From positions 1-26,220 of the IMG/VR virus record IMGVR_UViG_3300046002_003145: a stretch of DNA of 26,220 nt, one strand, 5' to 3'. This DNA comes from a virus. This document shows positions 7,452 through 16,841 of this stretch, piece by piece (position 1 is the stretch's first letter; each line of letters starts with the position of its first letter). A program made the position numbers and the translations under genes. The notes under the pieces were generated by a model. That model was not told the DNA's origin. It worked only from the letters and a program-made list of their open reading frames with translations, and made no database searches.

Positions 7452-9152
7452 TTATAATGTTGTGTTAAAAATAACAATATCACCAGTCATATCATTACTA
7501 GGTGCGTATTGAGAATTAAATGTTGATGTGCCTAAAGCCACAGAATTATATGGTTGAACTCTTGATGTAAGAGCAGTATAAACAGAATTATTATATGGGG
7601 TAAAATCTACCAACGATGATGTGGTAATACCTGTGTGTGAATATACATAATCATAATAAGTTGTTCCACTATTATAAGTAAAACCTGTATAATATAGAGT
7701 TTGATTTGGAACTCTAATAGGTGTTGCCCCATCTATACCAGATGTCCCTGATGAACCACTAGTTCCTGATGTTCCGCTTGCTCCAAGTGTTGCTAAAATT
7801 ATCTTATGATTATTTGAGAATTGTGGATTACCACCAGCACTTACCAAAGATACGGGGACTTCCCAATAATTACTTGCTCCTACTATTTGTGTTGTCGCAC
7901 CTGTTATATTCCATACTTGATAATTCGCACTATCGTTTTGGTCTTGAATTGTAATCTGTTGTCCTACTTGTAATAAAGCCAAGAATATATCTATATCTGT
8001 TATTGGCGTGTCTGTAAGATGGTTGATGTTGATTTCGGTTGATGCGGTCATCGTAATATTATTCCAAAGAATATGTCCGTTGCCAGGATTACCTGATTGT
8101 GCGTTGTCCTTTGCTTCATAATAAAAGACACTTGAAGATACACCATTTATACCGCTAGTTCCTGAAGAACCACTTGTTCCCGAAGACCCTGATATTCCAA
8201 TACCAGATGTTCCTGAACTACCTGATGAACCATCTACCCCACTAGTTCCTGAACTACCACTTGTTCCTGAAGACCCCGCACTACCTGATGAACCACTAAT
8301 ACCACTAGTCCCCGAACTACCATCTGTTCCTGATGTTCCACTAGTTCCTGAACTACCACTTGTTCCTGAAGAACCAGCACTACCTGATGTTCCACTACTT
8401 CCACTTGTTCCTGATGAACCAGATGTTCCTGAAGAACCATTTACCCCACTCGTACCTGATGAACCACTTGTTCCTGAACTACCTGATGCTCCAATAACAT
8501 CTTCTCGTAATACCTTATAAGTTATTGTCTCACCTGAATTATTCATAATGAAATAAGCCCCTGTTGTGTCGCCAGTATAAAGGGGTAATTCACTTATTTT
8601 AAGATTGCCTGGTGGAACAACTAACGGCATCTGTTGATATATTACAGGCTCATAACTTTCGTTGTTTATAATGTCCCCATTTTCGTATAACAAATAAAAT
8701 GCGTCCTCAATATAAGGGGGAATACAAGATGTCTGTTCTACTTGAATTGTAATTGTTGCCTCAATACCTACAACACTTTCCTTGAACCTATCGTTAAAGG
8801 GTGCGTATTGAACTGGCATTTGTAAGTAAAAACCATATTGAGTAAGTTGATTGATAAATGTATCAATAAAGTCATTTAAGATTTGTTGAGTTAAAGACAA
8901 ACTATCTAATTGATTACTCAACTCTGGCTCACCCGTATATTCATTTAACTTGTCGTAAATTAAACAAGTAAAATTATATGATGTTAATGTATTATCTATT
9001 GTTGATGGTTGGGGAACAAAGTGTATCGCAGGATACTCTGTGATATATGTGTCTCTTGAATAATCCGATAAATTACCCCAAGAAAAAGTTCGTAGCATCG
9101 GGTGTTGTGATGCGAATACCTTGAATATTTTTATAATGTCTATGTAGGTCAT
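7452..9152 (-). CDS. Tail protein with collagen-like Gly-X-Y stalk
   Basis: 566 residues. Residues 1-145 form a compact domain (YIDIIKIFKVFASQHPMLRT; YPAIHFVPQP) like a small structural or tail-completion domain I know from Bacteroidota phages. Residues 183-220 contain GNLKISELP and GAYFIMNNSGETITYKV, a motif often preceding glycine repeats in phage fibre proteins. Residues 221-338 are collagen-like, with glycine every third position and Ser/Thr elsewhere (GSSGTSG units). A second short tract lies near residues 455-475. The C-terminal part is beta-rich. The gene starts three bases after the stop of the -1 frame coding stretch. It probably forms a trimeric fibre or stalk, which is inference from the repeat. 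Confidence 0.8.
   Translation of the reverse strand: MTYIDIIKIFKVFASQHPMLRTFSWGNLSDYSRDTYITEYPAIHFVPQPSTIDNTLTSYNFTCLIYDKLNEYTGEPELSNQLDSLSLTQQILNDFIDTFINQLTQYGFYLQMPVQYAPFNDRFKESVVGIEATITIQVEQTSCIPPYIEDAFYLLYENGDIINNESYEPVIYQQMPLVVPPGNLKISELPLYTGDTTGAYFIMNNSGETITYKVLREDVIGASGSSGTSGSSGTSGVNGSSGTSGSSGTSGSSGTSGSAGSSGTSGSSGTSGTSGTDGSSGTSGISGSSGSAGSSGTSGSSGTSGVDGSSGSSGTSGIGISGSSGTSGSSGTSGINGVSSSVFYYEAKDNAQSGNPGNGHILWNNITMTASTEININHLTDTPITDIDIFLALLQVGQQITIQDQNDSANYQVWNITGATTQIVGASNYWEVPVSLVSAGGNPQFSNNHKIILATLGASGTSGTSGSSGTSGIDGATPIRVPNQTLYYTGFTYNSGTTYYDYVYSHTGITTSSLVDFTPYNNSVYTALTSRVQPYNSVALGTSTFNSQYAPSNDMTGDIVIFNTTL
8138..8494 (-). repeat. DNA repeat tract encoding GSSGTSG units
   Basis: This stretch repeats a short unit on the plus strand (close to ccacttgttcctgaa) many times with small changes. 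It encodes residues 221-338 of the collagen-like protein. The internal repetition also creates a spurious open frame rich in Val and Gln. Slippage or recombination here would change the length of the stalk. Confidence 0.8.
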
Positions 9153-12861: not shown

Positions 12862-12885
12862 TATATTTTAATATAATTCTTTAAT
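12856..12885 (-). repeat. Gene-end/promoter repeat, copy B
   Basis: Second copy of the 30-base repeat at 12461-12490, with one mismatch, spanning the end of the 128-residue module gene and the next -33 box. Confidence 0.7.
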
Positions 12886-13254
12886 TATTTTATCAAACCA
12901 TTTATCTAAATCATAATACCTTGATGATGAACCACTATCACCAATTCCTTCTCCGTGTGCTTGGGGACTATTACCAAATAAAGAACCTTGATGTGATGTT
13001 GGTTTATATGTTCTCTTACTTTGTTTTGTTATAACACCATCATTTAACATATCATCACATACTAGTAAATTAGGAGTGAATCTACCTTTTGTGTCTGGTT
13101 CATTTACCTCATACTTACCATCTGCCGAACCAGTATTTTCATAAGAACTAAATGTGTCGTGATATTCTTTATACCTTCTAATATCAAACTTATCGTCTGC
13201 CTCAAAAGGAATCCTACAATCTGCGAGCCACATTATACCTTTACTGTATCTCAT
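12868..13254 (-). CDS. Stand-alone methyltransferase recognition-module-like protein (copy 2)
   Basis: 128 residues. It shares three blocks with the upstream paralogue: YSKGIMWLADCRIPF (3-17), GRFTPNLLVCDDMLNDG (57-73) and GDSGSSSRYYDLDKWFDK (105-122), with different sequence between them. In one-piece phage DNA methyltransferases the equivalents (GxxxIDxCRIP, GRxPANLL, GDSGSASRFF) lie between the DPPY half and the FxGxG half, the part thought to contact target DNA. Here they form a separate small protein with no catalytic motif. It overlaps the paralogue by 14 bases. A role as a trans-acting specificity subunit for the adjacent methyltransferase is inference; a decayed fragment is the alternative, but its open frame and tight coupling argue against that. 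Confidence 0.7.
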   Translation of the reverse strand: MRYSKGIMWLADCRIPFEADDKFDIRRYKEYHDTFSSYENTGSADGKYEVNEPDTKGRFTPNLLVCDDMLNDGVITKQSKRTYKPTSHQGSLFGNSPQAHGEGIGDSGSSSRYYDLDKWFDKIIKELY

Positions 13255-13606
13255 CTATTACTTTATCAAACCATTTATCAAGGTCGTAGTATCTACTATT
13301 TGTTCCTTTATCACCATATCCTTCCATCTTAAATGTTGCTCCTCCAAAATGTGCTGTATCCCTTGTTGTTTTACCACCTTCACTTATAGATATTTTACCA
13401 TCATTTAACATATCATCACATACCAGTAAATTAGGAGTGAATCTACCTAAACCTGCTTCTCTATCTAATCTCTTAAATCCCCAACCTTGATTATTAGTAT
13501 CCATCTTACCATTATCTCTACCACTTATTCCATTTTGTAATGGGTCAGTTTCAACAAAAGGAATCCTACAATCATCTAACCACATTATACCTTTTGAGTA
13601 TTTCAT
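13241..13606 (-). CDS. Stand-alone methyltransferase recognition-module-like protein (copy 1)
   Basis: 121 residues, paralogous to the following gene. Conserved blocks are YSKGIMWLDDCRIPF (3-17), GRFTPNLLVCDDMLNDG (54-70) and GDKGTNSRYYDLDKWFDK (98-115). The stretches between them (18-53 and 71-97) differ, as expected for target-specificity segments. It contains neither DPPY nor FxGxG. Its ATG overlaps the stop of the methyltransferase gene by four bases (ATGA), so the two are almost certainly translated together. The N-terminus begins exactly where the equivalent segment would leave the core in one-piece enzymes. The link to DNA recognition is inference from remembered alignments. Confidence 0.75.
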   Translation of the reverse strand: MKYSKGIMWLDDCRIPFVETDPLQNGISGRDNGKMDTNNQGWGFKRLDREAGLGRFTPNLLVCDDMLNDGKISISEGGKTTRDTAHFGGATFKMEGYGDKGTNSRYYDLDKWFDKVIDEIQ

Positions 13607-14622
13607 TTCTTATCCTTAAAAAACTTTATTAGTTCCTCTCTTGAAACAGATAATCTTTCATTACAAATATCAAAGTATTCTTCTTCTCTTTCCACTCCAA
13701 TAAAGTTTCTGTTTAATAACTTTGAGGCCAGACCAGTTGTTCCGCTGCCTAGGAAGGGGTCAATAACCCAATCACCTTCCCTTGTGAATAAGGTAATGAT
13801 GTAAGACATAAGTTTAATAGGTTTAACCGTTGCGTGAATATTCTTTGCTGTATTCGGTCTGTTCTTAAATGGAACATCAAAGTTCTCTTGTCCTTCGTCT
13901 CGTTGTGGTTTTTTCTTTTCTTCACCGGTCATTCCAAAATCTTTTTCCTTCTTTGCTGGTTTAGGAACTTGTAGAAATGGATAAGTCATTTTAATATTAT
14001 CAGGTAGTGCCTCAAAGTTTAATACATTATCAATATAACTTTTTTGTTTGTGTGGTTTCATACCAATAATAATATGTTCCACAGCAGGTTTAGGTTGGAA
14101 TCCTAATTTGCTTCCTTCGTATTTCTTTGCCAGGTCTGTTGCTGGTTCTGTAATATCAACCTCACTCTTGAATACACCAGTATCACCACCAATATAATCT
14201 GTATTATTACTAACATAAGAATTACCAGTTGTTCCTGCTCCTTTAGCTTTACCTAAAACCTCTCGTTCAGCATTAGCTCTCTTATCAATCATCTTGCTTG
14301 TGTCTGATGCTTTTGGGAACCCTGTGTGATAAGTAAAATACAACGGACTAAACGACATATCAAACCCCGAATCTTCCAAGTCCTTAATCATACGATATAA
14401 TACATCACTACGAGGACTACTCATTACAGCGATAAATGAACCAGGTTTTAATACCCTATAACACTCTTGCCAAATCTCTTTTGGTGGTAGTGTTTTATCC
14501 CAATCTTTACCCATAAAGTTTAAGGCATACGGGGGGTCGCACGCAAGCATATCTATTGATTCATCTTTGAGTGTTTTAAGTACCTCCGCACTATCTCCAT
14601 TAAATAAGTGTTGTTCTATCAT
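13603..14622 (-). CDS. Beta-class DNA methyltransferase (N6-adenine or N4-cytosine) lacking its usual central module
   Basis: 339 residues. Motif IV DPPY is at 29-32 (MLACDPPYALNF), motif I DPFLGSGTTG at 288-297, and GVEREEEYFDI at 309-319. This IV-then-I order is the beta class, which transfers a methyl group from SAM to an exocyclic amino group. Between them come GFQPKPAVEHIIIGMKP (174-190), a short SYIDNVLNFEALPDNIK, then YPFLQVPKPAKKEKDFG (214-230) and HATVKPIKLMSYI (263-275). In related one-piece enzymes a block of about 100 residues with CRIP, GRxPANLL and SRYF motifs sits near residue 200; here it is absent and occurs as two separate downstream genes. It probably protects phage DNA from host restriction; specificity cannot be read from sequence. 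Confidence 0.9.
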   Translation of the reverse strand: MIEQHLFNGDSAEVLKTLKDESIDMLACDPPYALNFMGKDWDKTLPPKEIWQECYRVLKPGSFIAVMSSPRSDVLYRMIKDLEDSGFDMSFSPLYFTYHTGFPKASDTSKMIDKRANAEREVLGKAKGAGTTGNSYVSNNTDYIGGDTGVFKSEVDITEPATDLAKKYEGSKLGFQPKPAVEHIIIGMKPHKQKSYIDNVLNFEALPDNIKMTYPFLQVPKPAKKEKDFGMTGEEKKKPQRDEGQENFDVPFKNRPNTAKNIHATVKPIKLMSYIITLFTREGDWVIDPFLGSGTTGLASKLLNRNFIGVEREEEYFDICNERLSVSREELIKFFKDKK

Positions 14623-14623
14623 A

Positions 14624-15112
14624 TTATTTTTTATTAAAAATTGAGAGCATTAGTGGTTTTATGTATCCTATTTTTGTTGGGTCATCTTCAATACCCCCAT
14701 CGTGTAAAAATCTAAAACCCTTAACAGGTTTCTCCAAAAATCTAATTTCCACATTTGGTTTTTTATAAATGTATTTGTGAAAATATCTTGTGTGAGTTGA
14801 TGATGGAATTAACATAACAGAACAAACATCGTGTTCTATCATTTCTTTATAACACTTTTCAGCAAACTTGCCGATGTAAATATCAAATAGAGGGTGGCAA
14901 TAAACAACCTCACCAGTCCAATCTTTATCTAAACAACTATTATCTTTTGTGTAATATTTTTCTAACAAATGGTTCTCATCTGAAGCACAAGCATCTAATG
15001 TAAAGTTAAACTCTTTTGATATTGATTCCCATATATCAGTTGGGGTTCTTAAATACATCATAGTTTTTGATGTCGTAAATGATAATGTATTTTTTGCTAT
15101 TGTTCTTTTCAT
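14624..15112 (-). CDS. Phage Dam-like N6-adenine methyltransferase homologue with altered catalytic motif
   Basis: 162 residues resembling the phage N-6-adenine-methyltransferase family (PF05869). TPTDIWESISKEFNFTLDAC (23-42) matches its TPxxlwxxlxxeFxftlDaca signature, and LDKDW (61-65), the later serine-rich turn (IPSSTHTRYFHKYI) and FLEKPVKGFRF (about 125-135) also fit. Where active members have the N/D-PPY/F catalytic motif, this protein reads YCHPLFD (71-77), so it may have lost activity or use a divergent site. The start overlaps the stop of the small basic gene by four bases (ATGA). An internal Met pair at 18-19 is an alternative start. It ends one base before the next methyltransferase start. 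Confidence 0.75.
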   Translation of the reverse strand: MKRTIAKNTLSFTTSKTMMYLRTPTDIWESISKEFNFTLDACASDENHLLEKYYTKDNSCLDKDWTGEVVYCHPLFDIYIGKFAEKCYKEMIEHDVCSVMLIPSSTHTRYFHKYIYKKPNVEIRFLEKPVKGFRFLHDGGIEDDPTKIGYIKPLMLSIFNKK

Positions 15113-16376: not shown

Positions 16377-16841
16377 TTACAAGAGCACATTTGTTCTTTG
16401 TTCTAAAAAATCTTTATATGATTTACCATTACACACTCTCCAAATTGTCTTACCATCTCTATTCATTTCTTTAGCAATATTAACATAAGTCCTGCCAGCG
16501 TCTCGTTGTTCTAAAATATAATAAACCTGTTGTTTAGTAAATGATGGAATACCTAATTGTTTTGGTTCTGAAAAACCATTTAATCTTGCGTGTTCTAAAT
16601 TGTCTCTGTTGGTAATCCACTCAAGGTTCTCAATTCTATTATCGTGTTTAACCCCGTTCTTGTGATTTACACAACAATAGTTATTTGGATTTGGAATATA
16701 TTTTTCAGCCAATAACCTATGAATATATTTCATTTTACCTCCCATAGAAATAACTTTATATCCTTTGTTATGGTTGGATTGTTTCCCCTTCTTTCCATCT
16801 TTATAGAAATTGCCATCTATGTCTATATCGTATTCTGCCAT
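16377..16841 (-). CDS. HNH endonuclease with C-terminal HTH
   Basis: 154 residues. The HNH_3-type core reads YIHRLLAEKYIPNPNNYCCV with NHKNG (39-63), then N-x-x-I-ENLEWITNRDN (68-81) and H84. His41 and His59 are the likely metal-site residues. An NUMOD-like start (YDIDIDGNFYKDGKK) and a helix-turn-helix (about 101-145: FTKQQVYYILEQRDAGRTY with IAKEM, IWRVCNGKSYK) frame it. This is typical of phage homing endonucleases, which nick or cut a specific site, and of HNH proteins that assist terminase. It starts two bases after the preceding stop (TAATAATGGC) and lies next to the small-terminase gene, so either role is possible. No intron boundary is visible. Confidence 0.88.
   Translation of the reverse strand: MAEYDIDIDGNFYKDGKKGKQSNHNKGYKVISMGGKMKYIHRLLAEKYIPNPNNYCCVNHKNGVKHDNRIENLEWITNRDNLEHARLNGFSEPKQLGIPSFTKQQVYYILEQRDAGRTYVNIAKEMNRDGKTIWRVCNGKSYKDFLEQRTNVLL

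Follow-up and report, generated by a model that had tools for sequence, protein, structure and literature searches.

Within a 26,220-nt stretch of viral DNA (the window), a beta-class DNA methyltransferase gene lacks the central block of its one-piece relatives, and the block is encoded instead, twice over, by small separate genes immediately downstream. We consider it quite probable that this is a phage catalytic core which exchangeable specificity modules, each made of two parts, complete in trans. Of two points we are confident: the modules represent the insert of one-piece enzymes in transplanted form, and selection acts jointly on core and modules.

The core and its two module genes

The core gene (13603-14622, minus strand) encodes 339 aa and matches PF01555 (3.2e-31, spanning aa 23-321) and phrog_67 (1.2e-58). 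Its motif IV, DPPY (aa 29-32; 14527-14538, minus strand), precedes the FxGxG motif I, here FLGSG (aa 290-294; 13741-13755, minus strand), and HATVKP (aa 263-268) occupies the HPTxKP position ahead of motif I, the arrangement of the beta class. By family the protein is an amino-methyltransferase, probably specific for adenine N6 to judge by its DPPY motif. Two further genes on the minus strand encode the modules M1 (13241-13606, 121 aa) and M2 (12868-13254, 128 aa), which are 47% identical and are built from three conserved blocks (B1 to B3) alternating with two variable segments (V1 and V2). In M1 these parts lie, on the minus strand, at 13556-13606 (B1), 13448-13555 (V1), 13397-13447 (B2), 13316-13396 (V2) and 13244-13315 (B3), and in M2, likewise, at 13204-13254 (B1), 13087-13203 (V1), 13036-13086 (B2), 12943-13035 (V2) and 12871-12942 (B3). 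Core and M1 are joined by a 4-nt stop/start overlap, ATGA (13603-13606, minus strand), and M1 and M2 by the 14-nt overlap ATGAGATACAGTAA (13241-13254, minus strand), in which the M1 stop falls within the YSK codons of M2. A first-pass annotation of this DNA had reported the three reading frames, the retained DPPY and FxGxG motifs and both gene junctions, all of which we find as described.

Neither module has a significant match in Pfam, NCBIfam or PHROGs, nor did 35 module relatives searched in PHROGs return one. An Rfam scan of the whole window was likewise without a match, so that the split is not accounted for by any known family of introns, and a promoter scan gave many consensus-like sites. 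Directly upstream of the core (14624-15112) lies a Dam-like methyltransferase gene (PF05869), whose place is taken in many relatives by a further PF01555 methyltransferase that lacks the central block, as at L003:723-1559. Elsewhere the window contains an HNH endonuclease gene (16377-16841) and, within a predicted protein adjoining the structural genes, a long GSSGTSGSSGTSG repeat (7452-9152). Among cultured phages, its large terminase is most similar to Bacteroides phage terminases (34% identity), which makes a Bacteroidota host possible.

The block missing from the core

In beta-class enzymes, the target-recognition region lies between the DPPY half and the HPTxKP motif. In the core of the window, the two halves are not separated by such a region on the same chain. 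The closest one-piece relatives that we found are L181 (Desulfobacula) and L182 (Deltaproteobacteria), both from bacterial metagenome-assembled genomes. Aligned with them, the core shows a gap flanked by about aa 201 (KSYIDNVL) and aa 206 (LPDNIKMTYPF), at 14005-14022 on the minus strand (NVL/NFEAL), where one-piece relatives have about 100-130 aa. Split cores have SYID(N/K)VLNFE.LP and TYP in common, with nothing inserted between.

When the three proteins are aligned jointly with the one-piece relatives, the core runs to ...SYIDNVLNFEA, is interrupted, and resumes at LPDNIKMTYPFLQVPKPAKKEK..., and the modules span exactly this gap, filling it with KGxxWLDDCRIP, GRFxxNLLVxDDxLNDG and DKGTxSR(F/Y). 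In L181, the order is ...QALDNGKGVTWLDDCRIPY...GRFPANLLVSDDVLNDG...DKGTYSRFFSLDAWAQ...PFLIVSKASKKEK... M1 is 39% identical to residues 152-267 of L181 (E=8e-18), and the module family matches a profile of twelve one-piece enzymes, from which L181 was left out, with a probability of 96.8% (E=2.8e-10). The first-pass annotation had stated that a block of the one-piece relatives was absent near core residue 200, that its CRIP, GRxPANLL and SRYF-type motifs sat in the two small genes directly downstream, and that the module edges coincided with the expected cut edges. Its account of one-piece relatives was correct, in that L181 and L182 do carry the block, and the alignment it had proposed as a check places the modules as the complement of the core gap. 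Judged from sequence, the departure is from the one-piece form, and membership of the catalytic family is unaffected.

In the predicted structure of one-piece L181 (pLDDT 71.7, pTM 0.73), confidence is high in the core, fair in the blocks and low in the V1 and V2 loops; among solved structures, M.BceJIV and DNA-bound CcrM have the most similar folds. A natural module-core chain from locus L111, with the intervening stop read as Gln, was predicted with its core folded but its module disordered (pLDDT about 30-45) and undocked, from a shallow alignment in which modules and cores were mostly unpaired, so that the outcome counts neither for nor against docking.

Two variable segments, independently exchanged

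Across 104 distinct modules, the three conserved blocks have a mean identity of 76%, with certain residues invariant, and V1 and V2 have 24% and 30%. The first-pass annotation had noted differing sequence between the conserved blocks; this holds and yet understates the matter, for there are two variable segments per module and they recombine independently. Module pairs have only V1 in common in 65 cases, only V2 in 191 and both in 9. At the chosen identity threshold of 55%, on which the counts of types depend, a non-redundant set of 102 modules resolves into 57 V1 and 46 V2 types in 88 combinations.

Both modules of the window illustrate the exchange. V1 of M1 is 86% identical to that of L015:1695 (V2 17%), and its V2 is 94% identical to that of L028:5918 (V1 29%). 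Similarly, V1 of M2 is 97% identical to that of L002:4223 (V2 20%), and its V2 is 91% identical to those of modules in L003, L009, L013 and L088 (V1 at most 30%). At the nucleotide level, M2 and the L002 module agree at 96% in B1, 98% in V1 and 94% in B2 before a sharp fall to 46% in V2, and M2 and the L088 module agree at 36% in V1 and 92% in V2. Some segment types also reach into one-piece enzymes: the KPNKGHRAKSKVTGYGEFGGG V2 is found in L181 (76% identity to V2 of L036:6187, 5e-17), whose V2 type is also that of the GHRAKSKVTGYGEFGGG modules, and the V1 type NPATNPKYRL occurs in one-piece L059 (50%, 8e-7). V2 is cleanly deleted in a few modules (L039, L235, L128) and in one-piece L183 and L185. 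Movement from V1 to V2 is rare, with 3 matches; a stretch of about 20 aa, IEQTIYGGGKGIP, present in both V1 of L111:5493 and V2 of L276:68 hints that the two can trade places. Modules of the same array are almost never alike in these segments, V1 being in common in 1 of 34 same-array pairs and V2 also in 1 of 34.

Occurrence and layout of the arrays

Four scans of viral sequence (IMG/VR), in which near-identical sequences were merged into non-redundant groups, yielded 60 groups in which the split core is complete, and every such group has at least one module. There is one module in 28 groups, two in 27, three in 3 and four in 1; in the remaining group, L239, the contig end truncates the start of a module. 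In record G012, five modules lie at one terminus and the core lies at the opposite one, an order that a permuted circle would give. Arrays comprise up to four modules and probably five. The recurrence of the arrangement in tens of viral contigs excludes chance. No modules were found in cultured phages, plasmids or 84,980 bacterial and archaeal genomes, and the genome matches to the core that we inspected were one-piece or truncated relatives.

Neighbouring genes nearly always overlap, by 1-23 nt. The 64 tabulated core-module junctions include overlaps of 4 nt (42), 23 nt (15) and 1 nt (5), and the 39 tabulated module-module neighbours include overlaps of 14 nt (21), 8 nt (8), 4 nt (5) and 11 nt (2). 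Some loci are ordered module-core-module, and at L117 a core flanked by modules (m-M-C-M) is followed by a further module about 1.2 kb on. Elsewhere, the core itself is in two reading frames whose halves are separated by several hundred bases (L113:1103-2701 and L049:1002-2648). Several cores (L037:245-1471, L038, L041:1713-2945, L044, L119 and L245) have a helix-turn-helix-like insert within the variable loop after GFPKA, a second exchangeable segment, in this case within the core; the insert of L037 gave a Pfam match to HTH_19/HTH_31 that is weak and below the cut-off.

Given such tight junctions, one could ask whether a frameshift at ATGA or read-through of a stop joins module and core into a permuted single chain. 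The ATGA overlaps could permit slippage, and in L111:4121-5515, L232:2012-3457 and L245:79-1716 an upstream module and the core are in frame with one stop codon between, the read-through of which would yield a module-core fusion. Overlaps of 4, 8, 11, 14 and 23 nt, however, put neighbours in different frames, no common slippery site was noticed among them by inspection, one locus has its module 486 nt away, and close overlaps of this kind are usual where translation is coupled; we regard a fused product as very unlikely.

Nor does the split look like decay, in which a one-piece methyltransferase was broken and rearranged and the modules are non-functional leftovers. Decay does occur in the family: L131 and L133 each have a truncated module fused to an apparent core start between HNH genes, and both loci look decayed. 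From these flanking HNH-like genes, it is conceivable that HNH endonucleases help to move or erode modules. The absence of a core from record G001 points the same way. Against this stand the 60 groups with intact reading frames and conserved overlaps, the invariant block residues, and a core dN/dS of 0.10-0.31 relative to related cores, indicative of purifying selection, and we hold decay to be scarcely credible as a general account.

Record G001 deserves separate consideration. In its 32 kb, modules occur in the order TerS-M-X-M-TerL-M, the gene names TerS, TerL and X having been assigned by eye, and a search of the whole record revealed no detectable N6/N4 methyltransferase. Its ends (L173/L170) overlap at 85-88%, being strain variants of one region with different gene content, from which the record is best taken as approximately one genome of mixed strains. 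Together with L178, where a module adjoins TerL and the core is not in view, G001 raises the idea that modules act independently or work with a core that the host or a co-infecting phage provides in trans. Yet of the seven longer records searched, six match PF01555 and G001 is the sole exception, and L117 has a similar module layout with the core present, which makes it likelier that in G001 a different gene has taken over the place of the core; X, a SAM-dependent enzyme by its look, may be that gene. An independent role for the modules is therefore, in our estimate, highly improbable. The first-pass annotation had named small proteins occurring without any methyltransferase as evidence against its proposal of a core with exchangeable, trans-acting modules, and G001 partly fits that description, beside 60 of 60 split-core groups with a module. 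It is a minority case that weakens the pairing of core and modules without overturning it, and anatomy, homology, recurrence and recombination lend that proposal strong support.

What the blocks and variable segments may do

The division of labor within a module can be approached through co-variation. Between loci, identity in the blocks follows core identity (Mantel r=0.80 for B2, 0.59 for B3 and 0.35 for B1), whereas V1 does so weakly albeit significantly (r=0.10, p~0.003), an effect perhaps of modules common to very close phages, and V2 not significantly (r=0.03). This pattern is expected if the blocks dock on the core and V1 and V2 face outside. The same co-variation would also suit modules that act as a structural lid or clamp, with the target chosen by the core itself, through the loop after GFPKA or a CcrM-like Loop-2B, and with V1 and V2 varying for other reasons, such as escape from a host inhibitor. 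CcrM indeed reads its bases by loops, among them Loop-2B and Loop-45 (PMC6787082), and the core has a variable segment of its own, sometimes with the helix-turn-helix-like insert. A lid of this kind would not lead one to expect V1 and V2 types common to distant one-piece enzymes, or arrays in which a V1 or V2 is almost never repeated, and we think it unlikely.

A pool of segments shared with one-piece enzymes best matches a role of V1 and V2 in target recognition, and non-repeating arrays are expected if each module adds a new specificity. The recognition role is inferred from the variability, exchange and position of the segments. Each core-module pair would likely methylate a motif of its own, with V1 and V2 each setting part of it.

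A proposed combinatorial mechanism

We propose, as a reading with reasonable though lesser odds in its favor, a combinatorial system in which a core with a hole is filled by any module of the array, each module pairing two independently exchanged half-specificity loops, and in which tens of V1 and V2 types would serve the phage population as a common stock for evading restriction. In the more probable reading given at the outset, the target-recognition insert, which in one-piece relatives separates the DPPY half from the HPTxKP/FxGSG half, has moved onto separate small proteins, which would be co-translated with the core via the overlapping stop and start codons. By docking on the core, the three blocks of a module would restore the structural element that it lacks, leaving V1 and V2 as two loops in contact with the DNA, each responsible for part of the target. 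If modules compete for the core, n modules would have n sequences marked and could protect the phage against n restriction specificities. New specificities might come from recombination within the conserved blocks, B2 above all, that swaps V1 or V2 between modules, as well as by gain or loss of whole modules.

If this is true, nature has provided a split methyltransferase that is retargeted by swapping a protein of about 120 residues, the catalytic subunit remaining untouched, or by swapping one of two segments of about 35 residues. Since the same V1 and V2 types occur in one-piece enzymes, the recognition code of PHROG 67, a large phage methyltransferase family, would become testable, and the modules would be small parts for programmable DNA methylation.

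Comparison with known systems

By homology, the system is a split, modular form of one-piece PHROG-67-like beta-class methyltransferases. With the one-piece PF01555/PHROG 67 enzymes (L181, L182; M.BceJIV, CcrM) it has in common the catalytic core and motif order, the central block (CRIP / GRFPANLL / SR(F/Y)(F/Y)) and some of the V1 and V2 types; it differs in that the core lacks the block, which resides on separate, often multiple genes. In open-licence papers we found analogues of such a system and no description of it.

One analogue is catalytic subunits with detachable specificity. HsdS of Type I systems is several times larger than these modules. Its layout is TRD1-CR1-TRD2-CR2 (PMC12707154), duplicated hsdS genes switch by recombination (PMC7394358), and the hsdM and hsdS genes of EcoKI overlap by 1 nt (PMC3510504). 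Common to both are a catalytic and a separate specificity subunit, overlapping genes, new specificities by recombination and, as the V1/V2 exchange of the modules attests, two exchangeable variable regions between conserved ones. The modules nonetheless take the place of a segment inside the core and come in arrays of 1-4 or more; neither core nor modules matched the HsdM N6_Mtase or HsdS families, the core matching PF01555 and, weakly, general methyltransferase families and the modules none. The likeness is one of working, by analogy, and not of descent.

The other analogue comes from Bacillus temperate phages, whose multispecific C5-methyltransferases carry arrays of target-recognizing domains in a single polypeptide, according to a passage in PMC12707154 that cites Trautner et al. 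1996. As that passage portrays them, they resemble the present system in combining one phage catalytic unit with several specificities, probably against several restriction systems, and differ in modifying cytosine C5 with domains in cis, where here an amino-methyltransferase would use trans modules with two exchangeable segments each. Consistently, the core matched PF01555 and no C5 family, and the modules are separate reading frames, not tandem domains. If our reading is true, the system joins, in the beta class, the logic of the Type I specificity subunit with that of the multispecific phage methyltransferase.
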